Source: Nitrospirota bacterium | GTDB taxonomy: Bacteria > Nitrospirota > Nitrospiria > Nitrospirales > UBA8639 | Assembly: GCA_011088105.1 (NCBI GenBank) | Contig: JAALKI010000008.1 | Coordinates: 1-64,000, forward strand | Direction of reading: 5' to 3' | DNA: 64,000 nucleotides | Part shown: positions 1 through 48,648 of the stretch, piece by piece | How positions within the stretch are numbered: position 1 is the first letter of the stretch | How the letters are laid out: each line of letters begins with the position of its first letter | The notes under the pieces: model-generated | Told to the model about the DNA's origin: nothing | Databases searched by the model: none | What the model saw: the letters and a program-made list of their open reading frames with translations, nothing else | Translations under genes and position numbers: made by a program

Positions 1-940
1 TCTGTTGCTGAAACCGTTGAGTTACGAAAGGCAAAGACATGCCATCTTCGTATTGCCCCAGCGTTTCACTAATTTTCTCGATTCGCACCCCCGTTGCTGG
101 ATGTGTGGAAAAAAAGCGAGACTGCGTATATTCTTTTTGAGCCTCCAATGTTTTCAAATAGGTTTGAAGACCAATGGGATTGTAACCTGCTCGATAGGCA
201 AATTCGATCCCGAATACATCCGCTTCGTATTCTAAATCTTTGTCTAAGCCCTTCGTAAAAAGCTTATCAGTGATCTCATCAATCACATTGGAAAACATCT
301 GAGAATCCTTTTTCATCGCGGACAAGGTCAGTTCTGAGACATTGGACAGCACCGCCCCTCGACGAATGGTACTCAGCATGTGTTTTTGTGTCACATGCGC
401 TACTTCATGAGCCAACACACCCGCCAATTCGGCTTCGTTTTTTAGCGTTTTGAGTAGGCCGAGGGTAATAAAAATATATCCTCCTGGCGCAGCAAATGCA
501 TTCTGGTCCAGGTCATTCAAAATGGCAAACCGGTACGTGAGGTTCGGACGATCAGAAACCTCGCCGATGGTCCTACCAACCAGATTCACATATCGCGTCA
601 ACGCATCGTTGCGATATTCGCCACCAAATCGACTAAAGGCTTCTACGGCCACGGCCTCACCAATGATAGCCTCTTCTTCCTCGCCAATAGGTTGCAAAGC
701 CTGGACGACACCCAACCCTTTTTTGAAAAGGTCAATATCTTTTTTCTTCGCACCAAAAATTCCGCCCAGGCCATCGATCAGGCCAGGTTGCTCTTCTTGC
801 GAAGCCTGGCCTTGAGAAGAGGATTCTTTTTTCTGTTGTGGTGCCGGTTTGAGCAAATCATCAAAAAACCCGCTGGCACCTTGTCCTGTGCCGAGAAAAG
901 TCAGGGCCATCAACATTACAGTTAAATAGGCTCTCTTCAT
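1..940 (-). CDS. M48-family metalloprotease, exported (3' end cut by window edge)
   Basis: The reverse strand is open from an ATG at 940 to the window edge, so the C-terminus is missing. The product starts with a hydrophobic signal peptide (MKRAYLTVMLMALTFLG), followed by a low-complexity Gln/Ser linker. At about residue 178 it has the zinc motif HEVAH, and about 60 residues later EYEAD supplies the third, glutamate, ligand; a later STHP fits the family's conserved HP. M48 peptidases of this periplasmic BepA/LoiP type degrade misfolded envelope proteins or help outer-membrane assembly. The start overlaps the stop of the upstream SH3 gene by 4 bases (ATGA), so the two are probably translationally coupled. 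Family assignment is secure; the exact substrate is not visible. Confidence 0.9.
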   Translation of the reverse strand, partial: MKRAYLTVMLMALTFLGTGQGASGFFDDLLKPAPQQKKESSSQGQASQEEQPGLIDGLGGIFGAKKKDIDLFKKGLGVVQALQPIGEEEEAIIGEAVAVEAFSRFGGEYRNDALTRYVNLVGRTIGEVSDRPNLTYRFAILNDLDQNAFAAPGGYIFITLGLLKTLKNEAELAGVLAHEVAHVTQKHMLSTIRRGAVLSNVSELTLSAMKKDSQMFSNVIDEITDKLFTKGLDKDLEYEADVFGIEFAYRAGYNPIGLQTYLKTLEAQKEYTQSRFFSTHPATGVRIEKISETLGQYEDGMSLPFVTQRFQQQ

Positions 941-1452
941 TGTCCACCTCCTACGTATTCTCCGACCCCACCTTCTTGTTGAAACCGTGCCAATTCTTCA
1001 TTAGAGATCACAAGTTGTTCCATATTTTCCACAGATTGCCTATGAATCGGATCAATCTGTTTATGTTGGGCATACTGATTGGTTGTTTCTTTCAAACCAC
1101 GGATACTCCCCCCAGAACGGGCTTCTTTGGCCATCATCCTGTTATTCCCCGTTAAGCCTGATAACCCACTGCCACCACTTTTCCCAGCCGGCTTTGTTTT
1201 GGAAATTTTAAATTTGAAGACCCAGCCGGTTTTGCCATTACTCAATATCACGTAATATTGACGACCAGCTTTTTTCATGACTTCGACTTGATCCCCTATT
1301 TCCAGCGTCGTCACCACAGATGACGTGGGTGATTTCTCAGCTGTAACCTTAACCCCATTCTTTTTCGCATACATTGTTTCTGCGAATGCGGACACGGCTC
1401 CCATGAACCAGATAGCCGCCGCAAGCACTGCAACCCAGCCTACTCGTTTCAT
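937..1452 (-). CDS. Exported SH3-domain protein
   Basis: The 171-residue product has a signal peptide ending near AVSAFA, then a bacterial SH3-like domain (roughly residues 25-85) with the typical pattern of a variable start, an I-GDQVEV strand and a GKTGWVF strand. The C-terminal half is charged, Gly/Ser-rich and probably disordered. I chose the ATG at 1452 because GGGGGA lies 4-9 bases upstream; an in-frame ATG further up at 1530 lacks such a site and would put residues ahead of the signal peptide. Bacterial SH3 domains often bind cell-wall peptides. The gene sits between the giant CHAT gene and the M48 protease and overlaps the latter by 4 bases, which suggests a shared envelope role; this is inference. 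Confidence 0.8.
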   Translation of the reverse strand: MKRVGWVAVLAAAIWFMGAVSAFAETMYAKKNGVKVTAEKSPTSSVVTTLEIGDQVEVMKKAGRQYYVILSNGKTGWVFKFKISKTKPAGKSGGSGLSGLTGNNRMMAKEARSGGSIRGLKETTNQYAQHKQIDPIHRQSVENMEQLVISNEELARFQQEGGVGEYVGGGQ

Positions 1453-1582
1453 GATTTCCCCCATTGCTGCCAATAATAATGCCTCTGCATCATGGCTTCT
1501 GCCTGTTTCATACCTAGACACATCCTTCATATTTCCTAAGCGATATACGCATCTTGTCTATCTATTTTCTATAGTGTTTTGA

Positions 1583-4500
1583 CTATTGATAATCGCCAAC
1601 CAAACTAAAGCCTGCCCAATATGAAGGATGTGGGAAGTCTCGTTTGACGAGTAACTGAGCCTGACGCAAGCTTTTTGCCTTATCCATTGTGACATAGTTC
1701 CGATAAAAATGTTTCATCAGGACAGACGTCGAGAGATCATCAACTCGCCACAAAGCCGACACCAACGCATGCGTCCCGGCATAGATAAAGGCTCGGTTCA
1801 ACCCAATCAGCTCACCCGCTTCCAATTTCCCTAAGCCTGTCTGACAGGCACTCAATGTCACTAAATCAGCATTAATCTCCAATCCAAAGACTTCCTTCAC
1901 CGTTAACCGACGATTTGTGGGAGCATTGGAGGCTAGCCATAATGAGGAAAATAACGGATTGAATTCATCAAACTCACCATGCGCGGCAAGGTGAATAACC
2001 CCATAATCCTTAATGTGTTCAACAAACCATTCCTTTGTAGCTTTGGCTCCGGTCAAAATATCCATATCCGGATAGTTCCATTTAATACTCTGCGCCTCCA
2101 GCTCTGCCAAGGGAAGATCATAGTTATAATTTCCCAGGTCCGGATTCCCCACAGCTAATACCTTTGTGGCTTTTTCTGTTCGGCGCTGCGCAAAGGTAAA
2201 TTTCAAAACAGAAGCAGCTGGCGTATAAAAAATCGGGTAGCGATCAACGAGATATTCTTCTGCATGTTTTAGAGCCGCAAAGGAAAGAAAATGAAGTGGG
2301 CCATCTGGAATAATCCCAAGGTATTTAATGTCTTCAAGATCTTGGCGAACTGGAGCAATAAGATAGGCATACAGAGCCTGCAACTCATCATCCACCGACT
2401 CTACCTGCTGAACGGCTTGGCGGTACCGTCCGATGATTTTCGCAATCGCTTCTTCGTTAGCAGGAATGGGATAAAAGGTTACACCAGATTCTTGAATCAG
2501 CCAGACATAGCTGCCCTGGGTACTGACCATATACGATAAGAGCCCGACATCAGGCGCAATCATCTGTTGCACGTCTTGCAGCGTGAGCGGGTCCACGGAT
2601 ACAAAAGAACTCAGCCCTGGATTCTGTTGCTTCAGTTCCAAGACCATTTGATCATACCGTGTTTTGGCATCTCTATACCGTGCCACCACATCAGCCGGTG
2701 GCTCCTCATATGACCCCACTTCAGTCTTCAAGGCCTCGACACGACGGGACATGACAGAAATGGTATCTAACGCCTGCTGATCGGCTTCATTGTTCAACGT
2801 AAGCTTTTGATTACCCAATAAATCGATAAAACTTCGAGACCGAGACCGTTCTAAATAATTGAACGCCTCATCAATCCGGTCCATTTCAATCAGAAGCCTA
2901 ACCGTTTCCCGGTAAAGATCCTGTTTGTTGACTTGGAAACTATTCCGCAATTCATCAATTTTCAAAGATGCGCGCATCCCCTCGACTACGGTCACTGCAT
3001 TGGCATACCAGGAAAAGGCATCGACATGGTTCCCTTGTTCCCATAAGATTCCACCTTTACCCTTTGCTGCGCGCCATTCCACTTCCTTAATGCCATATCG
3101 TTTGGCTCGTTCATAAGCTTGCGTATAATAACCAATGGCCTTTTCCGATTTTTTGAGCGTCCGGTTCACATTGCCCAATTCCAGTAATGCCTTCACCCAA
3201 TTAATCGCATTCTTAATCGCTGCGCTCGTTTGTTCCGCTTGAATAAAGTTCTCTTCAGCTTCAACAACTTTGCCCATTTTGAGTTGGGATATCCCAATAT
3301 TGCGATAGTCATATCCCAAGCCCCATCGGCTATTGAGCACTTCGTCAATGTGCTTGGCCTGTTCAAAATACTCAAGAGCGGTCACATAATCCCCTTGTTG
3401 CCGATAGACTAACCCTACATTATTCAGTGATGATGCCAACTCCGTCTTAATATCAGCCTCTTGGGCCATAGTCACCGCTTCGTGTAATGACAACAAGGCT
3501 TTTTCCGAATCATTCAAAGTCCAGTACATCAGACCTCGTGTGTTGTGAACCATGATCGTTAACTGGGTATCTCCGGCGTCTCGCGCCAGCGTGTCAGCTC
3601 GCGATAAGAATTGAAATGCCTCTTGATAGCTGCCTCTAAACCAGGAGGTATTGGCAAGGTACAAATACCCTGAAGCGATCAGAAAAGGATCGTCCAGCTC
3701 TTTACCAATTTGCCTTCCCTGCTGATAATATTGGTCAGCTTGTTCAAATAACCCTATTTTTTCATAGGTCAGCCCAATCTCATACAATGTTTCCGCTTCT
3801 CCACGACGATCTTCAAGCTCCCGATAAGACTCTAATGCCACAGAAAAGTTCTTTCTAGCTTCTTCATAACGTCCCAAGCGAAGATAGTAAATCCGACCGA
3901 TTCGGCGATGTTGGGTCGCCACATCTCCAACTTCGCCAATTTCCTCATAGAGCGCATACGAGCGGCCAAAGTCCAACAAAGCTTCGGAGTAAGCTCCCAT
4001 GTTTTCCCTAACCACCCCAAGTGTGGCGATTCCTTCAGCAAGCCTATCGAGTTCCTCTGCTTGCAACCACAGCACATTCGCACTTTCTAGGTGCTGGATA
4101 GCGACATCAAACTGTTCCAACCTCGAATAGAGAATGCCCAATTGATAGAATGCTTCTGACCGTTCCTCAGACGTTGCCGTTTCACCCAATGCCTGTAACA
4201 ATTGGTTTTGATGAAACACCGCAGTTTGATACTCACCAATTTTATAAGCCGCATCCACAACCAACTTTGTCAATTCGCGAAAATCTTCCATTTTATCAGC
4301 ATAGTGAATCACGGACAGGGCATGAATCATATGTTGAAGCGCTTGAGGATACTGCCCCTCCTGATAGAGCGACACCGCCGTGTTCAGTTGATCCGCATAG
4401 ATGGCCGACGCAAATGCCATTTTTTCTTCTTCATTCATCCCCGCATAGCCATACAGCACAAAGGACGATGCCACGGCACTCACGTCTTGGACCTTGGCCG

Positions 4501-7500
4501 AAGCCTGGGCAACCGCTTCATGCGGAGGCATGTCAGTCAAACGGGCCAGATATTGTCCGACAAATTGCTCAGCCGTCTCCTTATCATATCTCCCATGGCC
4601 TACAATGACATGGGGAAAGCCCGACCGGATCAATGCATTCACCAGTAACGCTGTAGATGCCTCATGTTCTTTCGTACTATTCAAGATAATGGCCGTATGA
4701 TGAGTCGATCCGGCTAGATTTCGCACACGAATAAACTCACGAACTCGTAACTGTTCGTTGACCGTAAAGGCTAAATCTTTTTGACGATTCATCGTAACAA
4801 ACACATCTGTCATCTCAATAAGTTTGGAGTCGCTCACAGGGTCACCGTTCAGAGTCTGCAAAGAAAATGAGACAGCACCTGCTGTTGGCATCAGAAGAGC
4901 AGAACGCTTGCTGGCAACGGTGACATTTGTATAAAACAGGCTTCTTTGGTGGAACCCATTGATAATCTCATAACTATTCGACACTCGTGTTACCGGGATC
5001 GTATTCGGAAAGAACGCCTGAGCTTGCGTGAGAAGTGATTCGGCGGTCGACAGATAGCCTAACCCCGGTTGGCGAAGAATCTCCTGAACCTGTGTAACAT
5101 TCCCTTCTATAGGAAAATATTGTACGTGCGTCCCATGATGGATAAACCCATGGCTCTGCTCGATACCAGGAACAACCTTCATGTAGCGATGTTCCGCATT
5201 AACCGCGACAGAAAGAGTTTCTGCCGTCAGTGGGTATTGCCAAAAATACGAAACCGCCCACGGATATTCTTCGTATAAGGCAAATAGGACCTCTTCCAAT
5301 TCAGCCGAAAGAGCCTCGAGCTGCTCCGGCTGGCCTTGGCTCAACCCATGGCGAATCTCTTTGATCAAACTGCCAAGATCTTCCGCATACTCGCCTACTC
5401 CCGTTAAAAAAAACTCTTCGCCCATCACCTCATACAGCATGAGGCTCATTTTCCGCATGGCTAATTGTTCTGCAATGATAAAAGCTTGCTCATATCGACC
5501 ATCTTCAACAAGCCCGTCAACATAAAGAGCAGATAACCGATCCAAGAATGGCATGACTGCGCTAATATGTTGACGAGGCAATGCTTGAGGGGGATACCGC
5601 ATCAATTCGTCAAATGCTTGACGAAGCCATACCTGACGCTCATCCGGTTTTTCAGCATGTTCAGCTTGCAAGACAGACCATAACCAACTATTCCAAACCC
5701 CGACCATCTCAGCCAATCCGTTCAGATTTTTCTGTAGTCGCGCAGAGGCCTCCTGATTGTTCCCAGCCAGCGCAATATCTCTCATATTCAAATCAAGCAT
5801 GAGCAACAAAGAAGCGTTAGGCCCATCAGGAAAAATCGTGTGATCCTCCAGCATCGCTCTGGCTTTTACATAATAAGACCAAGCGTGTGTTTTGAGGGTA
5901 TACAGCATGTGGAGATGTTCAACTGCGTCTTCAATATTGTCTGAGCTGTGAGCGAATGAATCGGAAAGCGCTGAAAGGAGAAAGGCCACGTTTGTCAGCG
6001 CATAGAACGTCTGAGGATCTTTCTGTTCTTCAGCAATCTGTTCATCTAGCGCCTCAACCAACACGGCGACAATATCCCATTCAATTTCCTCCCCTGTGAG
6101 AAACTGTTCAGCGAAAAGGCGAGAAAGGTTATACACATTGATGCGTGTTCCAAAATTCAAGTCTAGCGTTTGCGTATAGCCTAGAGATTGACGCATGTAA
6201 TCAATGGCCTCGACAGGCAACTCAAGCTGATGAGACAACAATCCAATCCGATTGAGCACCACGGCTTTTTCTGTCAACCGTGCAACATTCGTGTCTGCAT
6301 CAGGGCTGGCGGCAATCAACGCAAGCTTTTTGAGATAATACTCTCGTGCTGGCGCCGGTTCCTTAAGTTTTTCATAGGTCCCCGCAATGTAACTGAACAT
6401 GAGTTTTTCTTCGCCGATGGCATCAAATCCACTCGCGGCTTCTGACCCACCACCCCCAAGCGGAACTTCGACATTGAAGAATCCTGAACCTTTTTGTTTC
6501 TGCTTCCCTCCAAATTGTTGGATGGAATCCAAGCTAGCGAAGTAACTCTTCAATGCGTTCTTTAAAGCCTCTCGTTCTGTTTGATTTCCAGAAGAACCGA
6601 GATTGTAGAGATTCACCCCGATATTGCGTTGGAGCAACGCAAGGTTTTTCCGGTTACCTAACTCGAGGTTGATTTCCATCGCCTGAGAATACGACTGGAC
6701 GGCCTCTGAATACCGCCCTAAATCCTGTTGCGAAAGCCCCAAACGTTCCAACAGCTCAGCCCTGAGAATGGGTTGATCGTCAGGGACTCGTTTCAGTGCT
6801 AATCGATACTGGCCAATCGACTCTTCGCTATGTCCTGTCTTGAAACAAGCTTCACCAAAGTTTTTTCGAAACAACAGCTCCGTCGTAGGATCCCGGGTGA
6901 TGCTGTGCGATTGGTCACGTTGCCGGTAATGGCGATACGCCTCAGGATAATTAGCTAAGGCCATATAGGTATTACCCAAATTCAACAACAAGTTAGATTC
7001 TACTATCGGAAATTGAAATTCGTCGTTGAGATCCAAGGCGATACGGTATGCCTGTTCCGCTTTCTCCAAATATCCATACTTCCCATCAATTTGTTCTACT
7101 TGTTCATATGCCCACCCCAACGTTTGATAAAAATATGGAATCCCAGGATCAAGTCCGATTGCCTGCTCTATCAAACTGATGACGCTGAAAAAATCCGGGG
7201 GATTCGAATATGAAAGCGCCAGCCCCAGACTATATCGATAGACCGCATGCTCGGGATTAGCCTCAACCTGTTTTCTATACACAGCTTGGACGGCAGGAAT
7301 TTCCTTCAACATCACCTTTGTATTGATGTACTCTCGATGTGCCTCCACCGACTCCGGATAGGTTTGCGTTATAGCCAAAAGCTCTTTTGCGGCAATTCGC
7401 ACCTCACCGATTGCTCGGTTTTTAATAGCCTTCCTCACAAGCTGTAGCACCATGAGGCGCTTGACTCGATCAAGCTCAAGCTGATTAGTCCCTGTATGTT

Positions 7501-9355
7501 CCACAAGTGCAGCATAGACATCGGCTGCTTCCTCATAACGTTCTGCAGCCGAAAGAATTTCTGCTTTTTGGGTGTATGCTCGCTCAACCATTTCAGGAAA
7601 AGGCAGCGGCATGGTCAACACCTGATCCAAGACAGCAATCGCTTTGAGTTGTTCCCCATTTTTTTCATACAACTCAGCCATGCGAAGACGCGCCGATGCG
7701 ATCAGTAATGGCAACGACGAGTAAGCATCAACTAAGGTTTGGAGCGAAGCGGTCTGTTGATGCACATCCGTCCCCCGCTCTGAAACTGCAATGGCTTGAG
7801 TCACGGCACGTCGCCCCCAGGAACTATTCTCTCCAAAGAGAGTAATGACATCCACAAACACCTGGAGCAGACTCGACTCATCACCCAGCGCTCGGTACCC
7901 TATCCCACGTGTAAACAGGGCCTTAGCCCTCACATCCTTATTCTCCAATCCGTCAACTTTCGCCAGATAATCCAATGCAGACAGAAAATCACCACCAAGC
8001 AAATGCAACCGCCCGACTTCAATGAGTGCTTGTCCATACACCATATCGTCAGATCGATGGTTTTCCCCAATTACCAGCAAGTCTGCAACGTGCTTTTGAA
8101 TAAGCCGCGTCAATCCTGCTTGACTGAGTTGCCCTACGTGCTGGCGAAGATTCAAGACAATCGTTTGAAGCCGAGCCAAGGCACCGATGCGGCCATTCTC
8201 TCCTGCATAAGGCTCCAGAACCTGTTGCGCAAGGGTAAAGTGTCCCGCCTCGACTAGTTGCTCTACATAAGCAAAATCAAATTCCGCTCGTTGTGTTACG
8301 AGGAGGTCAGGCGCAAGATTTCGGGAAATGTTGGTGAGCCCCAAAATCCCAAGGTCCGTTTCATCCCGGTCGAAATGCCATGTGGCCTGCTCATGAGCTT
8401 GGTCAAACGACGCATATCCATTCAGGAAACGCTTGAGAGTCAGTCGAAAGATATCGCCGTTCCGAAGATCAGAAAAATAGACAACCCCCTGGGTTTCCAC
8501 AGGATACAGATGAAAATGATTAGCAGGCGTCAGTTGATACAATGAGTCTAACTGATGGGTCGCCTGATTCATCTGCCCAGTCCAGATTGAGGACTGATCA
8601 TCTGTGTTTACGACCCCATCTTCATTTGTATCTTCTTGATATCTGGCAAAGACAAGCATTCCCGTATCCGTCATGACTGGAGACACATCCAAGTCTGTCC
8701 CCACCATGAGTTCAACACGATCTTCAGACTCCGCACCAGGTAATGCATAGAGATTGCCCTCATGGGCATAGACAATCCAACCATCCTGTGTGATTGAAAA
8801 GGTAGAAGCATGAGTGACCACTTCCTGTTCAGCGCCATCAAGAAGCGAGCGACGAAAAACTCCCCGTTTCTCGCTGACAAGGTCTTGCTTGAGATAAAAG
8901 ATGACATCTTTTTGCAAACTCCATTGCGGGAGGGAATCGCCACTAGATAAGTCCGTTAAGCGTTTTTCTTCACCCGTCACCACATCCAGGAGATAGATGT
9001 CTCCTCGAGGGTCTGTTTTGTTGGAGACATAGAGCAACTGACTCCCGTCCGCATTTAATGATGGATTTCCATCTACGGCAGGGTGGGTCGTCAATTGGCG
9101 TGGGAGGGAAATCGCCCTAGCTGATAACGATTTGAGCCAGATATCCGCATTCCCAGCTCGTTCTGAGACAAAGGCCAGATACCGTCCATCTTGCGAAGGC
9201 GCCGGGAAGTAGTCAATAGCCGGATGAGAGGTTATTTTTTCAGGCGTACTGGCAAGAACCAGATCATGACAGAACCACAAAACACACCCTACAGCCACGA
9301 GGCCTGAAAGAAAAAAGGCATGAAGTAATCTCACTTGACTGCTTTTTTGACCCAT
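1583..9355 (-). CDS. Giant TolB-like propeller / TPR / dual CHAT-domain protein
   Basis: The product has 2590 residues. An N-terminal hydrophobic segment (residues about 8-30) looks like a signal peptide or anchor. Residues about 40-350 hold TolB/WD40-like blades (for example PSQDGRYLAFVSERAGNADIW split over blade strands), with an EF-hand-like Asp-rich loop near 245. Long TPR tracts follow (about 370-1200 and 1650-2160). The C-terminus is a CHAT caspase-like protease domain with a catalytic His in HLAAHGEF (about 2457) and Cys in SACQTG (about 2503), ending with the usual WAGFSLVGD. A second region near 1400-1625 resembles a CHAT domain without those residues. The start has GGAGA 8 bases upstream and overlaps the lipoprotein gene by 25 bases. 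It probably acts as a scaffolded protease in or facing the periplasm; substrates are unknown. Confidence 0.85.
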   Translation of the reverse strand: MGQKSSQVRLLHAFFLSGLVAVGCVLWFCHDLVLASTPEKITSHPAIDYFPAPSQDGRYLAFVSERAGNADIWLKSLSARAISLPRQLTTHPAVDGNPSLNADGSQLLYVSNKTDPRGDIYLLDVVTGEEKRLTDLSSGDSLPQWSLQKDVIFYLKQDLVSEKRGVFRRSLLDGAEQEVVTHASTFSITQDGWIVYAHEGNLYALPGAESEDRVELMVGTDLDVSPVMTDTGMLVFARYQEDTNEDGVVNTDDQSSIWTGQMNQATHQLDSLYQLTPANHFHLYPVETQGVVYFSDLRNGDIFRLTLKRFLNGYASFDQAHEQATWHFDRDETDLGILGLTNISRNLAPDLLVTQRAEFDFAYVEQLVEAGHFTLAQQVLEPYAGENGRIGALARLQTIVLNLRQHVGQLSQAGLTRLIQKHVADLLVIGENHRSDDMVYGQALIEVGRLHLLGGDFLSALDYLAKVDGLENKDVRAKALFTRGIGYRALGDESSLLQVFVDVITLFGENSSWGRRAVTQAIAVSERGTDVHQQTASLQTLVDAYSSLPLLIASARLRMAELYEKNGEQLKAIAVLDQVLTMPLPFPEMVERAYTQKAEILSAAERYEEAADVYAALVEHTGTNQLELDRVKRLMVLQLVRKAIKNRAIGEVRIAAKELLAITQTYPESVEAHREYINTKVMLKEIPAVQAVYRKQVEANPEHAVYRYSLGLALSYSNPPDFFSVISLIEQAIGLDPGIPYFYQTLGWAYEQVEQIDGKYGYLEKAEQAYRIALDLNDEFQFPIVESNLLLNLGNTYMALANYPEAYRHYRQRDQSHSITRDPTTELLFRKNFGEACFKTGHSEESIGQYRLALKRVPDDQPILRAELLERLGLSQQDLGRYSEAVQSYSQAMEINLELGNRKNLALLQRNIGVNLYNLGSSGNQTEREALKNALKSYFASLDSIQQFGGKQKQKGSGFFNVEVPLGGGGSEAASGFDAIGEEKLMFSYIAGTYEKLKEPAPAREYYLKKLALIAASPDADTNVARLTEKAVVLNRIGLLSHQLELPVEAIDYMRQSLGYTQTLDLNFGTRINVYNLSRLFAEQFLTGEEIEWDIVAVLVEALDEQIAEEQKDPQTFYALTNVAFLLSALSDSFAHSSDNIEDAVEHLHMLYTLKTHAWSYYVKARAMLEDHTIFPDGPNASLLLMLDLNMRDIALAGNNQEASARLQKNLNGLAEMVGVWNSWLWSVLQAEHAEKPDERQVWLRQAFDELMRYPPQALPRQHISAVMPFLDRLSALYVDGLVEDGRYEQAFIIAEQLAMRKMSLMLYEVMGEEFFLTGVGEYAEDLGSLIKEIRHGLSQGQPEQLEALSAELEEVLFALYEEYPWAVSYFWQYPLTAETLSVAVNAEHRYMKVVPGIEQSHGFIHHGTHVQYFPIEGNVTQVQEILRQPGLGYLSTAESLLTQAQAFFPNTIPVTRVSNSYEIINGFHQRSLFYTNVTVASKRSALLMPTAGAVSFSLQTLNGDPVSDSKLIEMTDVFVTMNRQKDLAFTVNEQLRVREFIRVRNLAGSTHHTAIILNSTKEHEASTALLVNALIRSGFPHVIVGHGRYDKETAEQFVGQYLARLTDMPPHEAVAQASAKVQDVSAVASSFVLYGYAGMNEEEKMAFASAIYADQLNTAVSLYQEGQYPQALQHMIHALSVIHYADKMEDFRELTKLVVDAAYKIGEYQTAVFHQNQLLQALGETATSEERSEAFYQLGILYSRLEQFDVAIQHLESANVLWLQAEELDRLAEGIATLGVVRENMGAYSEALLDFGRSYALYEEIGEVGDVATQHRRIGRIYYLRLGRYEEARKNFSVALESYRELEDRRGEAETLYEIGLTYEKIGLFEQADQYYQQGRQIGKELDDPFLIASGYLYLANTSWFRGSYQEAFQFLSRADTLARDAGDTQLTIMVHNTRGLMYWTLNDSEKALLSLHEAVTMAQEADIKTELASSLNNVGLVYRQQGDYVTALEYFEQAKHIDEVLNSRWGLGYDYRNIGISQLKMGKVVEAEENFIQAEQTSAAIKNAINWVKALLELGNVNRTLKKSEKAIGYYTQAYERAKRYGIKEVEWRAAKGKGGILWEQGNHVDAFSWYANAVTVVEGMRASLKIDELRNSFQVNKQDLYRETVRLLIEMDRIDEAFNYLERSRSRSFIDLLGNQKLTLNNEADQQALDTISVMSRRVEALKTEVGSYEEPPADVVARYRDAKTRYDQMVLELKQQNPGLSSFVSVDPLTLQDVQQMIAPDVGLLSYMVSTQGSYVWLIQESGVTFYPIPANEEAIAKIIGRYRQAVQQVESVDDELQALYAYLIAPVRQDLEDIKYLGIIPDGPLHFLSFAALKHAEEYLVDRYPIFYTPAASVLKFTFAQRRTEKATKVLAVGNPDLGNYNYDLPLAELEAQSIKWNYPDMDILTGAKATKEWFVEHIKDYGVIHLAAHGEFDEFNPLFSSLWLASNAPTNRRLTVKEVFGLEINADLVTLSACQTGLGKLEAGELIGLNRAFIYAGTHALVSALWRVDDLSTSVLMKHFYRNYVTMDKAKSLRQAQLLVKRDFPHPSYWAGFSLVGDYQ

Positions 9356-9903
9356 TCGCCATTCTCCAATTGAATCATGTCCCCAGATCGAGCTTTATCA
9401 CGATTCAATGAGGCAAACATTTTCCTGATGCGAGGCAAATCTTTATCAGAAAGTTTTTCATTTGTTTCAATGACCCGGTGCATCACGACCTCACGATCTG
9501 CATTTTCTTCTTCCACCAGGTTCTTTACAAATGGCATCTGACCCGCTTCAACCAGATCTGGAGACAAGAGCGTGATCATCCCTTCGTTATTTTCCCCAAG
9601 CGCCTTAAGCTTTTTGAGTCGATCAATATCGTCTTTGTTAAAGGAAGCTCGCTGAATGGCTCGAATAACTTTCTTTTTTCCCGGCGGGATTTCCGGAGTT
9701 TTCTTGAGCTTCCCTTTCGGATCAATATATCGGACCGAGGCCACCAATAGAACTTCTTGATTGAGCTCCTGATATGTGCCAAGCACCTGATTCTCAAGAG
9801 CCGTACGCTCATCAACAACGGTCACCCCAACCAATGGACCACTGCAACCCACCAAAAGCCCTGCCAACCACCAAACAATAGCGTTCTTATGATTTTGATT
9901 CAT
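9331..9903 (-). CDS. DUF1318 (YdbL-like) lipoprotein
   Basis: The 190-residue product begins with a short positive N-terminus, a hydrophobic stretch and the lipobox LVGC, so it should be a lipoprotein. The C-terminal third carries the DUF1318/YdbL pattern: repeated Arg/Asn-rich helices, then a short GDMIQLENGEWVKK ending that matches the family's usual finish. In other bacteria YdbL is encoded with YnbE and the AsmA-like YdbH; neither is present here. The middle has charged helices with no recognised domain. It is the first gene of the minus-strand operon and overlaps the giant CHAT gene by 25 bases. The ATG at 9903 has GAGAAGG just upstream. The lipoprotein call is firm; the DUF1318 match is judged from memory of the family pattern. 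Confidence 0.75.
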   Translation of the reverse strand: MNQNHKNAIVWWLAGLLVGCSGPLVGVTVVDERTALENQVLGTYQELNQEVLLVASVRYIDPKGKLKKTPEIPPGKKKVIRAIQRASFNKDDIDRLKKLKALGENNEGMITLLSPDLVEAGQMPFVKNLVEEENADREVVMHRVIETNEKLSDKDLPRIRKMFASLNRDKARSGDMIQLENGEWVKKAVK

Positions 9904-10042: not shown

Positions 10043-10969
10043 TCACAGTCCATCTCGTTCTTCGCGTGGAATAGTTAATTTTGCATCGATAAAATCCTGG
10101 TGAGAAAGATCAAGGGTCTTCGCAATCATCTTGATTTCTTCAATTTCCTGGTTAGATGTCTTATTCGCTGCATTTGCAACCATAAATAGACATCGAAGAA
10201 ACGTCTTTCGTTCCTCAAACGTCGTGTAATCACGCAAGCCTCGACCTAACCGAACAACATCCAAGCCTTTGAGGATTCGGACGCGACTAATTTGGACAAC
10301 CAGGCAAGCTAATTTTTCAGAAATCCCCCAAATCTTGACCAGCGATTGCACCATGGCCTTTTCTTCTTGTTCACAGATTTCTTGATCCAGCCATGCCACT
10401 CGTGCGAGCAACCCAGCAGCCAAACAGACTTTTTTAATTTCCTGTTCAGAGAGCACAAGAGGAGTCCCCTGATTGTCCATCTCGGTCACGAGCTGAAAAT
10501 ACACCGTATTCTTAATGTAATCCTCTAGACGACTTTCCCGACGGCCCTCCCCCTCATAATGAGCCATGCGTGACCGGACAGCTCGTCGAATCGGCCTCGT
10601 AAGGTGAGAGAATAACCCCACTCGTTTTTCTTCAATATCCCGGCGTAACGTCTCCCACATGGCGACTTCTGCCTCATCCATCTGACCATCAACCTGAACC
10701 AGGTTAGAAAGTGTCTCAAGGACTAATGTCTTATCGGCAGCAGAGGTCATGCCATCCAGAACCCGCTGAAGCAACTGATGTCGCTCTTCTTCACTGACCG
10801 GAGCAACCAGATATAACTCCAGTTGCATCCAGTCTTCACCGGAAATATCCGGCAGGAGAAAGAGCAACTCTTTCAAGGCATTTACTTCTTTATGATGTAA
10901 GGTTCCATCCACCCACGCAGCTCCGATCAGGAGTTTCCCAAGATTCAGGATAAATGCTTTGTCCGCCAT
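10043..10969 (-). CDS. TerB-like domain protein (two tandem TerB-type modules)
   Basis: The 308-residue, mostly helical product resembles tellurite-resistance TerB-like proteins. Its N-terminal part has the typical opening in which a helix is followed by A-WVDGTLH-KE, then a second half-module with VQVDGQMDEAE (about residues 85-100). A second copy starts near residue 175 with ARVAWLDQEICEQEE and ends near 280. These acidic motifs resemble the metal-binding helices of TerB. No signal peptide is present, so it is likely cytoplasmic. AAGGAGAAGG lies directly before the ATG at 10969. It is separated by 139 bases from the lipoprotein operon and divergent from the FGE-like gene. Actual involvement in tellurite or stress response is not shown. 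Confidence 0.75.
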   Translation of the reverse strand: MADKAFILNLGKLLIGAAWVDGTLHHKEVNALKELLFLLPDISGEDWMQLELYLVAPVSEEERHQLLQRVLDGMTSAADKTLVLETLSNLVQVDGQMDEAEVAMWETLRRDIEEKRVGLFSHLTRPIRRAVRSRMAHYEGEGRRESRLEDYIKNTVYFQLVTEMDNQGTPLVLSEQEIKKVCLAAGLLARVAWLDQEICEQEEKAMVQSLVKIWGISEKLACLVVQISRVRILKGLDVVRLGRGLRDYTTFEERKTFLRCLFMVANAANKTSNQEIEEIKMIAKTLDLSHQDFIDAKLTIPREERDGL

Positions 10970-11232: not shown

Positions 11233-12132
11233 ATGGGGAAATCGTTTACGCATCAAAACCGACGCACTTTTTCACTGTTCGTCTTAACCGCATTGATCCT
11301 TGTGAGCCTAAACAGTCTCTCTACGGCTGGGGACGGCGAAGCCGAACCGGAACCCACGGACCGTGAAACCGTGTTTATTGGACAAGATGGCGCGCCCATG
11401 GTCACAATCCCAGAAGGGAAGTTTCTCATGGGTTCCTATGAAGGACCTCGGAATCAACGGCCAGAACATACCATCTGGCTTGATACCTACCTCATTGATC
11501 AATTTGAAATCACGATGAATCGCTATCAAAAATTTTTAGATGAAACTGATCATGATCCTCCTCCCTTGTGGGATGACGGGGCCTCTTTTGAAGTCGGTGA
11601 CCGCCCAGCAGTAGGAATGAATTGGTCAAGTGCTCTCACCTATTGTAAATGGGCAGGCAAACGCCTGCCTACTGAAGCCGAGTGGGAAAAAGCTGCCAGA
11701 GGCACTGATGGGCGACGTTATCCTTGGGGCCATATGCAACCCTTTGTCGACATTGCCAACTATAATCGCGGAGTCTGGGTCGATTATGCGATTACACTCA
11801 GATCCGTCACAGCTGGCATCAAAGGCATGAGCATTCGACATGGTTTAAAAGAAGGTGGGAAAAGCCCGTATGGCCTATACCACATGTCTGGAAATGCCGC
11901 AGAATGGGTGGTCGATTGGTACGATCGCAACTACTATGAACAAAGCCCACCGCGCAATCCAACAGGTCCTGAATCTGGAGAAAAAAAGGTCTTGCGTGGT
12001 GGGTCATGGGAAGATATGCCTAAGCGATTACAAGTCACCGCTCGCGGGTCAGCTGAGCCAAATTTTCCGGAAGAAGCCAATGACTTAACTATCGGTTTTC
12101 GATGTGCTATGGATCCCACGACATCATCATAA
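11233..12132 (+). CDS. Exported FGE-sulfatase-fold (SUMF1-like) protein
   Basis: The 299-residue product has a signal peptide (about residues 12-32) and then a formylglycine-generating-enzyme-type fold: GKFLMGS, a YLIDQFEIT strand, the RLPTEAEWEKAARG block, GLYHMSGNAAEWVVDWY and LRGGSWED, ending in IGFRC. The Cys pair that true FGE enzymes use for oxygen activation is not seen between the LRGGSW block and the C-terminus, so this is probably a binding or scaffolding member rather than a sulfatase activator. GAGGAGA lies 6 bases before the ATG at 11233. It precedes a TPR/outer-membrane barrel gene on the same strand by 209 bases. FGE-fold proteins often accompany envelope or polysaccharide loci. 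Confidence 0.85.
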   Translation: MGKSFTHQNRRTFSLFVLTALILVSLNSLSTAGDGEAEPEPTDRETVFIGQDGAPMVTIPEGKFLMGSYEGPRNQRPEHTIWLDTYLIDQFEITMNRYQKFLDETDHDPPPLWDDGASFEVGDRPAVGMNWSSALTYCKWAGKRLPTEAEWEKAARGTDGRRYPWGHMQPFVDIANYNRGVWVDYAITLRSVTAGIKGMSIRHGLKEGGKSPYGLYHMSGNAAEWVVDWYDRNYYEQSPPRNPTGPESGEKKVLRGGSWEDMPKRLQVTARGSAEPNFPEEANDLTIGFRCAMDPTTSS

Positions 12133-32579: not shown

Positions 32580-35500
32580 TTACATATGGTCATGGGAACA
32601 CGATATGACGTATTTTTCACTAAGTACATCAACATCATTGACTCTGGCAATGTGTCCTTTAAGAATTAAGTCACTTGACTCACAACCAACTGTCCACACT
32701 TTTACCGTGCAATCATCAGACCCAGAAATAAACCTTTGTCCGCTGGGAAATATTGCCAATGAATTTTGACGAGCTGTGAGACCAGAGATCGACTGATATT
32801 CTGTTCCCTTTTCAAAACTCCAAACTTTTATAGTCTGACTATCAACTGCGGAAACAATAAACTGAGAATTTGGTGTGACAGCCAAGGCTCTTACCCAATA
32901 ACGCCCTTGAATCGGAATAGTCATTTTAAGTTTTACTTTCTCTAAATCCCAGATTTTTATAGTTCGATCGTCTGAAGCCGAAATGAGATATTTCCCGTCA
33001 TCCGTTGATGCCAAAGCTCGTATTCGGTCAGTATGGCCAAAAAAGATCTTAGTGGGTAGCATAGCATCCAAATTAATCAGTGCTATAGTGGCATCCCCAG
33101 CAGAGGAAAGGATATTTTTTCCATCAGACGTGAATGCAATCGGCCAATGATTCCTTTCAATAGGGGCATGAGTTTGTGTTCTATTATCCAATTCCCAGAA
33201 TCGCATTGTACGATCATCTGAAGTGGATACCGCCCGTTTTCCATCAGGAGAAACTACAATTGCTCTGACACGTTCAAAGTGACCTTTAAAAGGAAATGTA
33301 TTGGTCTCCTCTGTTAAATCCCAAACTCTTAAGGTGTGATCATCGCTTGCAGAAACAGCAAAGGTTCCATCCGAAGATAACGCCACGGAATTGACGCACG
33401 CATTATGTCCTATGAAAGTTTGCCTTAGTGTACACTCGCGAACAGACCACATCTGGATCTTATTATCTTCACAAGAGGCCAACACATACTTTCCATCTGG
33501 TGTCGCACCCAATCCCTTTACTCCGATTGCTTTCCTTAATACTTTAAGAAAAATTCCTTTCTGGAAATCCCACAGGCGTAAGGTATCATCACTCGATGCA
33601 AACACTAGATTTTGATTATCCGGCATGATAGATAGTGCATTCACGCGATGAGTATGTCCCTTTAAATCATACCTTTCTGTCCCATCCTTCAAGTTCCATA
33701 CCTTAATGGTTCGATCATCTGAAGCGGAAATCAGCCAGTTACCACATGAGGTGACTTGTAACACATTAATTTTGGCTAAGTGCCCTAATAGAGTCCTTTG
33801 TATCACTCCATTCTTAAGGTCCCAAACTCTCAATGAGTGATCATCAGTAGCAGAAATGGCATACTGACCATCAGGGGTCACTGCCAACGCTAAAGGCCGG
33901 TCCACATTATGGTAGATCGTTTTTTCTAATTCCGAATTTGCTAGGTTCCAGATCCTCAATGTTCTATCGTCGGAGATCGATACTGCCTGCTGTCCATTAA
34001 AGGACACGGCCACAGCTCTGACCCAATCTTTATGTCCTGCAAACGTTCTTACTTCCTTACCTTGCTTTGGATCCCACAACTTCAATGTGCAATCATCAGA
34101 CCCTGAAATCACCAAGGACGATTGGGGAACCATTGCTAGGCAACGGATTCGTCCATGGTGGCCTTTGAGAGTCAAAATAAGAGTCCCACCTGGAGGCGTT
34201 AGATTAGGTTCTAACGGAATTAACCAAGGGGCACTCCGCCAACTCATTGCTTTTTCACGCAACATAGTAATTTCTGGAGAATGATCATCATGGAGACGGC
34301 CCAATAATTGTCTAGCAAGTTGTTTTTTATCCTCCGCCAAGACATGCGCAGAAAGTTGAAGAGTGCTGGCTACAACTCGTAATTTGTGATCGTTTGGTAC
34401 AAGGAGGAAATCTCTCAAGAGACTGTTTATATTTGTTGCTTCAAGTTTGGCTTGCAACCAATGAAAATCTAAAAGAAGATTTCTTAATTCCAACTGTCTT
34501 TCTGCTTTTACCAAATGATAGGAAAACCAATGCCAGGCATAATTACTCGAAAGCCTTAAAGGGTCACCCCAAGAATTTAATAAGCGACCATGCAAAGCCG
34601 GGGAATCTATAATTTGGCCCGCCATATAGGCCCGCATAACATCATGGACACGACACATCGAAGTTCTTAAGTTGAAAACAAGAAGAGAAAAATTATCAAA
34701 TTGCTGAATCAACTCCTCTACCTCAAAATCATCTAAGCCCCACAGCATGCTAATTTCTTTCAGAGGTATTTGTTCATCTTCTGGGAAAATGGCGAGTTCA
34801 AAGTAACGCATCCGTTCTGCTTCTTTGAAATGATCAAGACTTACTTCGATAGTTCGAGTAATTGCCTGATGGCGTTCTTGTGGATTCCATTGATCAAAGG
34901 CACTGACACCTTGTTTATCTAGTTTACGGTTGAGATATGAGACCGCTCCACGAATGGTGTCTCCTCTCTCAAGACGATGCCGTAATGCAGCCCCCGCCAG
35001 TTCTAAAAGCAACGGCCATTCGCCTAATCGACGAGCCAGATGTTGAAATAATTGAACATTCTCGTTCCCTGAAGTCAGCCGATTTGTGAGCATTTCCACA
35101 GCTTCTGGATTTGTCATTTCATTGACGTTTACACTTTTGGTTTCAGCAGCAACAGAAAAATTGCGAGTAGTAATAAGTCGAGCACTGTGTTTTCCAATTC
35201 GTAGGAAGGGACGTAGATGTGTTAAATCCCAGACGTCGTCGATAACAATGAGGCAATTCAGATCCTCTAGCTTTTGGGCTAGATGAATTGTGACATCTTC
35301 TTCATCGATAAAACCCGGACGTTGACCTGTGAGTGCCGCATATAATTTCGTCAATTCTTCTCGAATCTGAGGTCTTTGGCCTAAGGTAACCCATAGAATC
35401 CCATCATCATAGGCTGTAATAATATCATCGTGATGACATATAGCAGAAGCCAACGTTGTTTTCCCTAGTCCTCCGGCACCGCGAAAAGATGTCGTGATTG

Positions 35501-35597
35501 TTATTGGCTCCTCTTTATCTTCTCCCAGAAGAAAATTAAGGAGCTGGTTAAACTCCCTAGGGCGTTCAATCAGATTTTTGGGTAAGTCAGGGGCCAT
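32580..35597 (-). CDS. NB-ARC STAND NTPase with WD40 propellers (C-terminally truncated, severed from TIR domain)
   Basis: The NB-ARC region shows a P-loop (GAGGLGKTT), Walker B (CLIVIDDVWD), a sensor TTR (RLITTRNFS), GLPL-like WPLLLELAG and an MHD-like VHDVM, followed by twelve complete WD40 repeats and the first half of a thirteenth. The frame ends abruptly at CSHDHM-stop, where the DNA joins an IS30 remnant; two seven-bladed propellers would need fourteen blades. The same frame continues upstream past a TAA at 35664-35666 into a TIR domain. The ATG at 35597 is the first possible start after that stop but has no strong ribosome site. Such TIR/NB-ARC/WD40 proteins are NLR-like immune or signalling ATPases that oligomerise on ligand binding. 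Codon and base use look AT-richer than neighbours, suggesting transfer. Confidence 0.85.
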   Translation of the reverse strand: MAPDLPKNLIERPREFNQLLNFLLGEDKEEPITITTSFRGAGGLGKTTLASAICHHDDIITAYDDGILWVTLGQRPQIREELTKLYAALTGQRPGFIDEEDVTIHLAQKLEDLNCLIVIDDVWDLTHLRPFLRIGKHSARLITTRNFSVAAETKSVNVNEMTNPEAVEMLTNRLTSGNENVQLFQHLARRLGEWPLLLELAGAALRHRLERGDTIRGAVSYLNRKLDKQGVSAFDQWNPQERHQAITRTIEVSLDHFKEAERMRYFELAIFPEDEQIPLKEISMLWGLDDFEVEELIQQFDNFSLLVFNLRTSMCRVHDVMRAYMAGQIIDSPALHGRLLNSWGDPLRLSSNYAWHWFSYHLVKAERQLELRNLLLDFHWLQAKLEATNINSLLRDFLLVPNDHKLRVVASTLQLSAHVLAEDKKQLARQLLGRLHDDHSPEITMLREKAMSWRSAPWLIPLEPNLTPPGGTLILTLKGHHGRIRCLAMVPQSSLVISGSDDCTLKLWDPKQGKEVRTFAGHKDWVRAVAVSFNGQQAVSISDDRTLRIWNLANSELEKTIYHNVDRPLALAVTPDGQYAISATDDHSLRVWDLKNGVIQRTLLGHLAKINVLQVTSCGNWLISASDDRTIKVWNLKDGTERYDLKGHTHRVNALSIMPDNQNLVFASSDDTLRLWDFQKGIFLKVLRKAIGVKGLGATPDGKYVLASCEDNKIQMWSVRECTLRQTFIGHNACVNSVALSSDGTFAVSASDDHTLRVWDLTEETNTFPFKGHFERVRAIVVSPDGKRAVSTSDDRTMRFWELDNRTQTHAPIERNHWPIAFTSDGKNILSSAGDATIALINLDAMLPTKIFFGHTDRIRALASTDDGKYLISASDDRTIKIWDLEKVKLKMTIPIQGRYWVRALAVTPNSQFIVSAVDSQTIKVWSFEKGTEYQSISGLTARQNSLAIFPSGQRFISGSDDCTVKVWTVGCESSDLILKGHIARVNDVDVLSEKYVISCSHDHM

Positions 35598-35663
35598 GAA
35601 TGGCCTACGCGGTGCTCGGCAAGGACTTTTCAAATAATTAACGAACGTATCCCACTCATTCGC

Positions 35664-45381: not shown

Positions 45382-45639
45382 GCTATTAAGTTGACTATAC
45401 TGTTTGCTCAATTTCGTTTGGAATCAGCATTGAGTCTATAAAAAGTTGGCAGGGCTCTTCAAAAAGGCTATACTTTTGTCGAATACGCTGCCAACACTTG
45501 CATTCGGAGTTAGAGAATACCAAAGGTCGACTGCCTATGGATGGCATGCAACTTGGACCTTCTGATCTTCCCTCTTGCCTAGTCCGTACCCAGCTTTATT
45601 CCATAAATTCTCTCCTTGGGTATCACGGAACTGATCATT

Positions 45640-48600
45640 ATGACTGACAAGCAAGACGATAAACCCAAATTCCCAGTGGCCAGTATGTTAGCCATGATGG
45701 CTATGATAAGCGGTCTCGTAGTTTCTCAAGTTCCGTTGGAAACCTCACGGCCTATCGGCAAGGAAGCAAAAAGCCAGCTTTTTGTAGTTGACGATCGCGT
45801 GCAATCACGCCTCTGGCAGGACCCGTTTGAAGCGATTGAATCCCATATCGACAAAGAGAGAAAACGCGCGAACGAGCTCAACATGCCTATTCATCACGAT
45901 CACAAATTGAAAGATTTGGCACACGAGATCCATGATTCGCTTGCACAAGAGGAGCCATCGTTTACCATTATGCCGATTATGGTAGACGGCAGTCCATATT
46001 CTAATGGGATTGAGTCACGTCTGCGGCATCGCTATGCCATTGTCTCTGCATTGGAAGGCGTAGAGTATCTCCCCGAAAGCGCGGAATATATTCGCTTTAT
46101 CAAGTGGGCGCACAGCAGGAAATCGCACCCTCCCGCATTGATCCTTCCAGTTGAGTGGTATAAGCCAAAACCTAGTCTTGGGGAAAAAGCACCTCAGGTC
46201 ATAATCATCTGGCTAAAGGATCAAGACTTTAGCGACAAACCGTTAGCAAAACTTGCCCACCTCGTTAAGGATCTTAGGAATTCTTTTCAGCAGGCTCAAT
46301 TTAGAATTCTTGGGCCACGTGGATCTGGCACTCTTGGCACAATGGTCAAGGAAGCGAACAACCATTCGGATGCTTTGAAACCACTGCAGGGAGTGGAGAT
46401 CTTTTCCTCTTGGGCCACAGCTCATGATACCTTTTTGATAGGCGACCCACCTGATAACGCATCAAAGGCCTCACCAGAACCCAGCACGATAGAGGATAGA
46501 TTTTCGGAATTAGGTATCACGCTGTACCGCACTATCCAGAACGACGCAATCCTAGCAGAGCAACTGATCAGAGAGCTATGTCTGCGGAACGTTAATGTTG
46601 GCGCTGTTTGTTCGACTTCAGAAAGTCCCCATCATATCGCATTAATTTCAGAATGGGATACGTTGTACGGACGAGTTTTGCCCCGCACTTTTGTTGCGGT
46701 CGCCGAGAATAACGGGAAAGGGCAAGCTAGTTCTGAACTGGAACGACATATCAATACTCTCCGTCGAGGCAATTGGCCTTCATGGACACATCACTATTCC
46801 TACTTGGCTGGACTTGATGGTGAGCTACCGCCTAAGGACCACGACAAAAGCACATCAGAGCATTCACTCAATAAGAAGGTAGAGGAAAGAACAAAGCGCG
46901 TTGCCCAGGGGATGGAACTCCCCGAAGGTCGAGGACAACTGGATTACATTCGTCGATTAGCTAAAACCTTACAGGAAGACGCGGCCGATGTACCTGGAGG
47001 GTATCGCGCTATCGGTGTTCTGGGCAGTGACGTCTACGATAAACTATTGATTCTCCAAGCCTTAAAGAAGAGTTTTCCTCAAGCTATCTTTTTCACCACC
47101 GATTTGGATGCTCAATTAACGCATTCCGGTCAGTGGCCATGGACACGCAATCTGATTATTGCATCACACTTCGGTCTTCAACTACGACAAGACCTCCAGA
47201 AACCCATTCCTCCTTTTCGGGACAGCTATCAAACAGCACTGCTCTTTTCGGTTTTGCAGGCCTTAAAAGATATAGACAAGCGAAAGGTTATCACTGAGGT
47301 CCCGCCGAGGATGTATGAGATTGGGCGTCAGGGCCCCTTTGATCTGAGCGCGCTTGATAACCCGGAATCTCCATTCAGCATCCATCCTGAGCGATTGGAT
47401 CTGAATCCTTTAACGGGCTATCCACGTCAAGTCAATTTTTCTTCGATCCTCATTCTAGTCATTCTGCTTATCCTCATCATAATCCTTGCCATGTTGATTA
47501 GCAGCCGAGTGTGGACCACACTCATTCATCTGATGACCAATGGTCGGTTTTGGGCTATAACGGGGATCGCTATGATCATCGTGCTTGGTTTGACTTTTTG
47601 GGGCATAAGCGATAGAGCTGACGGTGAGCCTTTTACCCTGACAGAAGGCATTAGTGTCTGGCCAACACAGGGAATCCGTTTACTTTCATTCTTTTTATCC
47701 GGAACATTTTTTCTCTATTCAGGATGGAGCTTGCGAAAAAATGAAGGAGAGTTAAAAAAAATCTTTAGACTTCCTGACATCCAAGAGAACTGTCCCAAAG
47801 ATTCACTGTTTCAACGCGTGAAAGGCATCCACGACTGGTCCCAATCCTCGCCGCACGTTACCATCCAGCAGCTGTGGCTCGACTATTTGCAACTTGGCCA
47901 TTGGAAAAATCGGTGGATACGGTATGGCCCGCAAGCGGTCCTGTACCTCTGTTTTGGTGTTTTGTTGATGGGATTGTTCGGCCAACCCCATACCCCTTGC
48001 CGTGGCGAAGTGTGCTTTGACATTAGTAATGCAATCCTGGCAGCGAGCGTCGTGGGCATGGTTTTGTTGATTTTCTTTGTCGTGGATGCGACTCGGCTCT
48101 GCCGACGATTGATCAAACATCTCGTAGAAGAGTCAGTCCAATGGCCTGAGGATTTCCTCAAACAAGAGGCCAAAAAGCGAGGTGTTCAAGAATCCTTTGT
48201 GCGTGAATGGCTTGGCATCGATTTTATCGCACAACGAACGGCCGTCATCGGCCAGCTCATCTATTATCCCTTTATCATTTTGTTTCTCATGTATGTAGCT
48301 CGACATTCGTATTTTGATCGTTGGGACTTTACCATTGGCCTCGTTATTCTTTTAACCCTTAATGTCGCCTATGCCTTCGGAAACGCTGTGGCCCTACGAC
48401 AGTCAGCTAAAAATGCTAAACGAGCGGCTCTTTTTCAATTAAAGAGCAAGCTACTGCCGTTGTCAGATCAAGTCCCAGCTGAAAAAGAATCCAAACACCA
48501 AATTGAGAGGGCCATTAACGCGATAAAAAATAATCATGATGGCGCGTTTCTACCCGTTACCTCACACCCGATTTTCGGCGCAATCGCTTTGCCTTCAGGA

Positions 48601-48648
48601 GGATATGGGATAGTACTGCTGATGGAGTATCTTGCCAACACATTTTGA
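45640..48648 (+). CDS. Large unrecognised membrane protein with periplasmic-binding-like region
   Basis: The 1002-residue product has one N-terminal hydrophobic segment (about residues 15-30), a soluble region of some 570 residues, then about six to seven trans-membrane helices (from about 605 on) with a soluble C-terminal tail. Within the soluble part, GYRAIGVLGSDVYDKLLIL followed by AIFFTTDLDAQL and later IPPFRDSYQT resembles a type-1 periplasmic-binding (branched-chain-receptor-like) fold, and an EWDTLYGR block precedes it. I cannot name a family. The ATG at 45640 has GGAA nine bases upstream. A sensory receptor is one reading, but no kinase, cyclase or protease signature was found. It stands alone. 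Confidence 0.65.
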   Translation: MTDKQDDKPKFPVASMLAMMAMISGLVVSQVPLETSRPIGKEAKSQLFVVDDRVQSRLWQDPFEAIESHIDKERKRANELNMPIHHDHKLKDLAHEIHDSLAQEEPSFTIMPIMVDGSPYSNGIESRLRHRYAIVSALEGVEYLPESAEYIRFIKWAHSRKSHPPALILPVEWYKPKPSLGEKAPQVIIIWLKDQDFSDKPLAKLAHLVKDLRNSFQQAQFRILGPRGSGTLGTMVKEANNHSDALKPLQGVEIFSSWATAHDTFLIGDPPDNASKASPEPSTIEDRFSELGITLYRTIQNDAILAEQLIRELCLRNVNVGAVCSTSESPHHIALISEWDTLYGRVLPRTFVAVAENNGKGQASSELERHINTLRRGNWPSWTHHYSYLAGLDGELPPKDHDKSTSEHSLNKKVEERTKRVAQGMELPEGRGQLDYIRRLAKTLQEDAADVPGGYRAIGVLGSDVYDKLLILQALKKSFPQAIFFTTDLDAQLTHSGQWPWTRNLIIASHFGLQLRQDLQKPIPPFRDSYQTALLFSVLQALKDIDKRKVITEVPPRMYEIGRQGPFDLSALDNPESPFSIHPERLDLNPLTGYPRQVNFSSILILVILLILIIILAMLISSRVWTTLIHLMTNGRFWAITGIAMIIVLGLTFWGISDRADGEPFTLTEGISVWPTQGIRLLSFFLSGTFFLYSGWSLRKNEGELKKIFRLPDIQENCPKDSLFQRVKGIHDWSQSSPHVTIQQLWLDYLQLGHWKNRWIRYGPQAVLYLCFGVLLMGLFGQPHTPCRGEVCFDISNAILAASVVGMVLLIFFVVDATRLCRRLIKHLVEESVQWPEDFLKQEAKKRGVQESFVREWLGIDFIAQRTAVIGQLIYYPFIILFLMYVARHSYFDRWDFTIGLVILLTLNVAYAFGNAVALRQSAKNAKRAALFQLKSKLLPLSDQVPAEKESKHQIERAINAIKNNHDGAFLPVTSHPIFGAIALPSGGYGIVLLMEYLANTF

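Follow-up and report, generated by a model that had tools for sequence, protein, structure and literature searches.

A giant exported (predicted) TPR-CHAT protein with an internal pseudo-CHAT domain in a conserved envelope operon of Nitrospirales

The window analyzed here, a stretch of 64,000 nucleotides at the start of contig C67 from a genome of 2.6 Mb, encodes a giant protein that carries two CHAT domains in one chain, of which the C-terminal one keeps its catalytic residues and the internal one has lost them. The giant is a variant of the TPR-CHAT proteases and belongs to a conserved operon of envelope genes. The internal domain is maintained by purifying selection, and we put at about one-half the probability of our main reading, namely, that the giant is exported and acts as a scaffold protease, its dead CHAT serving as a docking or allosteric module, with a role in envelope maintenance or quality control.

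Domain architecture of the giant protein

From the N terminus, the order of domains is signal peptide, TolB-like propeller, TPR array, helical linker, pseudo-CHAT, TPR array, helical linker, and CHAT (Table 1). The predicted signal peptide coincides with the sole strongly hydrophobic stretch of the whole protein (residues 1–36). The second TPR array contains about 12 repeats within about 470 residues of the AF2 model. The C-terminal domain scores 209.5 bits with the Pfam CHAT profile (PF12770; cut-off 24), and both members of its dyad, His2459 and Cys2504, are present in 22/22 aligned sequences covering the two positions. A preliminary description had proposed the propeller, the TPR arrays on either side of the internal domain, and a C-terminal CHAT with catalytic His and Cys, and all three are confirmed by profile matches, with further agreement from phmmer against solved TolB for the propeller and from the AF2 model for the arrays.

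The giant appears to contain two copies of the whole TPR-linker-CHAT unit, because the stretch of the internal unit that is aligned by hhalign to the C-terminal module takes in the TPR tail and the helical linker as well as the CHAT domain. The linker-containing internal unit aligns with E-values of 6.5e-4 and 2.2e-3, and the pairwise comparisons overall range from 6.5e-4 to 0.02, i.e., the similarity is modest. Either a duplication or the joining of two paralogs could have produced this layout. A first reading from the letters alone overlooked the apparent repetition of the TPR-linker unit in front of the pseudo-CHAT.

Table 1. Features of the giant gene, its protein product, and the adjacent operon genes in the window.
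Feature	Window positions	Strand	Remarks
M48 metalloprotease	2..940	(-)	signal peptide, HEVAH motif; runs off contig edge
Exported SH3-like protein (predicted)	937..1530	(-)	Pfam SH3_3 4.3e-5, below cut-off; conserved downstream of the giant
Giant exported protein (predicted)	1583..9355	(-)	single ORF, ATG start, 2590 aa
C-terminal CHAT protease domain, residues 2324–2588	1592..2386	(-)	Pfam 6.7e-62
Catalytic Cys2504 (LSACQTG)	1844..1846	(-)	invariant in 22 sequences
Catalytic His2459 (LAAHGEF)	1979..1981	(-)	invariant in 22 sequences
Second TPR array, residues about 1650–2120	2996..4408	(-)	Pfam and AF2 model
Internal pseudo-CHAT, residues about 1390–1645	about 4421..5188	(-)	CHAT fold (modelled); catalytic Cys and His lost
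Helical linker before pseudo-CHAT, residues 1281–1389	5189..5515	(-)	resembles linker before C-terminal CHAT; hhalign
First TPR array, residues about 400–1080	6116..8158	(-)	Pfam TPR matches
TolB-like beta-propeller, residues about 39–330	8366..9241	(-)	PD40 5.4e-16; phmmer vs solved TolB 2.8e-12
N-terminal signal peptide, predicted, residues 1–36	9248..9355	(-)	hydropathy scan
DUF1318 (YdbL-type) lipoprotein-like gene	9331..9903	(-)	Pfam 6e-9; conserved directly upstream of the giant

Fold of the internal domain

The Pfam CHAT profile matches the internal region over its positions 174–270 (E 1.4e-4; window 4478–4759) with 21.9 bits, which is under the curated cut-off of 24 bits, and so the region is classed as a CHAT-like pseudo-domain and not as a Pfam member. 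When the internal domains of orthologs, which are not independent of one another, were searched separately, 13 of the 18 matched the same profile at E<=1. Profile comparison aligns the internal domain with the C-terminal CHAT in the expected register, again with modest E-values. Searches with profiles of both modules against the sequences of solved structures yielded no useful match, and therefore the comparison of folds is decisive.

The AF2 model of residues 1281–1650, computed from 18 sequences with no templates, has a pLDDT of 85.1 and a pTM of 0.89. In the Foldseek search of this model against the PDB, ranks 1–36 are all occupied by CHAT/separase-type or axonemal central-apparatus structures with probabilities of 0.98–1.00, namely, DdvA, the TPR-CHAT of Craspase, separase, SAVED-CHAT, and two axonemal central-apparatus assemblies; with the next match the probability falls from 0.99 to 0.08. 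The best single match (2.1e-5) is DdvA (PDB 8rw5, 8rot), a transmembrane anti-sigma factor by PDB title. The model thus supports the assignment of the internal region to the CHAT/separase-type caspase domains by fold, as had been anticipated from the motif pattern; the segment itself stands, while its borders, earlier placed at residues about 1400–1625, are shifted to those given in Table 1. The explanation that the CHAT-like match is due to chance and that the domain is something else could appeal to the Pfam score below the cut-off, but it has next to no probability in view of the matches in the majority of orthologs, the expected register in the profile comparison, and a confident model with CHAT/separase-type or axonemal structures at its 36 top PDB ranks and a sharp fall after them. 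A non-CHAT identity was ruled out by the model together with the Foldseek ranking.

Loss of the catalytic dyad

At the aligned Cys site of the pseudo-CHAT (around residue 1560, ILNST in the window) the residues vary, with Cys in no ortholog, and most orthologous internal domains contain no Cys at all. The aligned His site (FVTMNR in the window) lacks His in all orthologs except a divergent subgroup (L023/L046 and L038), where the motif IHPP or LHPP places a His about one column off the aligned dyad site, the alignment of catalytic sites being approximate at such low identity. Since Cys is missing at the aligned site, the His-Cys dyad that defines the CHAT family (PF12770) cannot form in this domain. 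The alignment supports the view, first suggested by the missing active-site motifs, that the internal domain is a pseudo-protease.

Maintenance of the pseudo-CHAT

Every ortholog that extends over this region has the pseudo-CHAT, among them 14 distinct complete ORFs of 2590–2667 aa, and the domain was seen only in ORFs that, where complete, also carry the active CHAT. In one truncated copy (L025/L047) the sequence breaks off in a stretch of N, and this copy was not scored as a natural loss. Median pairwise dN/dS values (NG86) rise from 0.043 in the active CHAT through 0.08–0.09 in the TPR arrays to 0.15 in the TolB part and 0.16 in the pseudo-CHAT. The pseudo-CHAT is under purifying selection, which is weaker than that acting on the active CHAT.

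Three explanations of these observations have to be compared. If the domain were an evolutionary leftover of the TPR-CHAT duplication or fusion, acting as a passive spacer between the TPR arrays, one could understand why it is among the quickest-evolving parts of the giant, with orthologs 31–43% identical to the window over the pseudo-CHAT vs. 59–73% over the C-terminal module, and why its median dN/dS is roughly four times as high as in the active CHAT. On the other hand, its dN/dS, ranging from 0.12 to 0.36, is always well under 1, the domain is never lost and never shortened in complete orthologs, and its residues invariant among 18 sequences include H1402, H1406, R1471, H1553, and H1582; we consider a leftover unlikely. 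The invariant residues could also mean that the domain has acquired a new function, in binding or in catalysis, that has nothing to do with the C-terminal protease, e.g., recognition of a ligand or metal by histidines. Of the four histidines, three (H1402, H1406, and H1553) occupy places at which the C-terminal CHAT has no conserved His, in favor of such a role, whereas H1582 has a conserved counterpart in that domain (H409 of A6), and we regard this explanation, too, as doubtful. The conservation and the purifying selection speak against a relic, and the pseudo-CHAT may possibly be an internal regulator of the giant, as the preliminary description had suggested. As an observation in its own right, the four invariant histidines (window 4421–5188) might form a ligand or metal site.

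Operon structure and neighboring genes

The giant sits in a conserved envelope operon. The gene order in most relatives is an AsmA/DUF748-like gene, the DUF1318 lipoprotein-like gene, the giant, the SH3-like gene, and the M48 protease gene. In the window, the DUF1318 gene and the start of the giant share 25 bases, and the M48 and SH3 genes share 4. The M48 protein of the window is 68% identical to that of locus L043, and the Pfam M48 profile is matched in the relatives. AsmA is not obligatory in the operon, since the window's own genome carries it on a different contig (C32), and in one copy from Candidatus Nitrotoga (L035) the upstream AsmA gene is absent. Of the same 60 genomes, 12 contain the giant and 12 the DUF1318 gene, with 10 genomes in common (Fisher p 5e-8, ignoring phylogeny), and among the four mismatches two genomes (G029 and G048) are fragmentary assemblies.

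A TerB-domain gene (window 10043–10969, minus strand) precedes the DUF1318 gene in the same orientation, but is not seen at that place in the operons of relatives. It was considered as an operon member for its size, which is similar to that of the relatives' downstream gene, and was rejected, as the latter encodes the M48 protease. Further along, a protein with an FGE-sulfatase (formylglycine-generating enzyme-like) domain is encoded divergently from the operon (11233–12132, plus strand). Two more distant genes of the window encode a protein with an APAF1-like layout, i.e., NB-ARC, APAF1-like helical/winged-helix, and WD40 repeats by Pfam (32580–35633, minus strand), and a 1010-aa product without Pfam families at E 0.001 (45616–48648, plus strand).

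Phylogenetic distribution

The giant is found in 12 of the 60 near relatives, the window's genome included, and in 5 of 296 genomes sampled across the phylum. A contig search with a single protein query gave no match, and the same search with an alignment query gave 20 loci. Named records with the giant come from Nitrospirota (Nitrospirales, Nitrospira sp., UBA8639) and from two Candidatus Nitrotoga genomes; a plasmid search with the internal domain produced no match. The giant is thus restricted to some Nitrospirales and these two Candidatus Nitrotoga genomes.

The latter, Candidatus Nitrotoga sp. BS and M5 (L033 and L035), are betaproteobacterial nitrite oxidizers and carry the giant together with its operon partners. 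Over the C-terminal half, their copies are 83–89% identical to the group to which L018, L028, and L034 belong, while most other Nitrospirales groups are only 53–66% identical to one another, far below the Nitrotoga match. The simplest reading of these identities is a transfer of the giant between phyla of nitrite oxidizers. The Nitrotoga copies may instead represent assembly contamination, against which it can be said that two Nitrotoga assemblies carry the giant in differing contexts. In L035, genes looking like surE, pcm, and nlpD were read by eye upstream.

Comparison with known systems

With other TPR-CHAT proteases (PF12770), e.g., Csx29 of Craspase and exported TPR-CHAT lipoproteins, the giant shares the TPR superhelix, the helical linker, and the His-Cys CHAT. 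It differs from them in having two units per chain, the first of them dead and placed behind a TolB-like propeller, with a signal peptide at the start; a CRISPR or gasdermin partner was not seen beside the giant. A related genome of the same order encodes two single-CHAT TPR proteins with lipobox-like starts (L052, 6567–10151, and L053, 6504–8945), which are about 45% identical to the C-terminal CHAT of the giant over the CHAT domain and are possibly simpler relatives of its second half.

By layout, the nearest analogue of the two-CHAT arrangement is the eukaryotic separase, which likewise joins a helical superhelix to both a pseudo-protease domain and an active caspase-like domain within one polypeptide, and whose structures are among the best fold matches of the internal domain in Foldseek. 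As in separase, a helical-repeat superhelix lies N-terminal to a caspase-like His-Cys protease. The separase pseudo-domain directly precedes the active protease domain, whereas in the giant the second TPR array and linker (residues about 1650–2320) lie between the dead and active domains, and the resulting spacing of about 680 residues counts against a separase-like arrangement. Moreover, the giant is bacterial, predicted to be exported, and without securin; cleavage of cohesin and inhibition by securin, which characterize separase, would not be anticipated in a bacterium. The two domains of separase are named PPD and APD (PMC5919728), and CHAT was reported as the prokaryotic family nearest to separase (PMC9729208), but the literature is not uniform, as an earlier modelling paper had not detected the second caspase-like domain of separase (PMC4626109).

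The neighborhood of the giant resembles ydbH-ynbE-ydbL of E. coli, where an AsmA-type protein is also encoded together with a DUF1318 protein, a combination seen in most relatives' operons. The locus of the giant adds the CHAT giant itself, the SH3 protein, and the M48 protease, and a small lipoprotein of the YnbE type was not noticed there. YdbH, redundantly with YhdP and TamB, is required for outer-membrane lipid homeostasis (PMC8593681).

Proposed function

In our main reading, the giant would reside in the periplasm, as suggested by its signal peptide and its neighbors, and the propeller and TPR arrays would bind partners. The C-terminal CHAT, judged by its retained dyad, would be a working cysteine protease, and the dead CHAT would dock a partner or substrate or restrain the C-terminal CHAT, in a separase-like combination. 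Together with the AsmA-like, DUF1318, SH3, and M48 proteins, the giant would most likely participate in maintenance or quality control of the envelope, i.e., in lipid transport or at the outer membrane. The AF2 model of residues 1391–2590 has a pTM of 0.50 with low confidence at the C-terminal CHAT and is too uncertain to judge a contact between the two CHAT domains. A bolder version of this reading, which we consider a long shot, is that of a periplasmic separase counterpart, spread between unrelated nitrite oxidizers, in which the dead CHAT senses in what state an AsmA-type lipid bridge or an outer-membrane partner is and gates the live CHAT in the service of envelope quality control.

The arrangement had been called unusual and without a described example at the outset, and in the open literature, searched for CHAT domains in tandem or in degenerate or pseudo form, no account of two CHATs in one bacterial protein turned up. 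Eukaryotic caspases and separase are well known to have pseudo-protease partners, but no report of a dead CHAT inside a bacterial CHAT protease was found. As no prokaryotic family is held to be closer to separase than CHAT, the giant offers a bacterial setting in which deletion could test what a pseudo-caspase domain does. The distribution of the giant suggests its transfer between two phyla of nitrite oxidizers, and CHAT proteases, mostly discussed for CRISPR and cell death, are here tied to an envelope operon with lipid-transport-type proteins.
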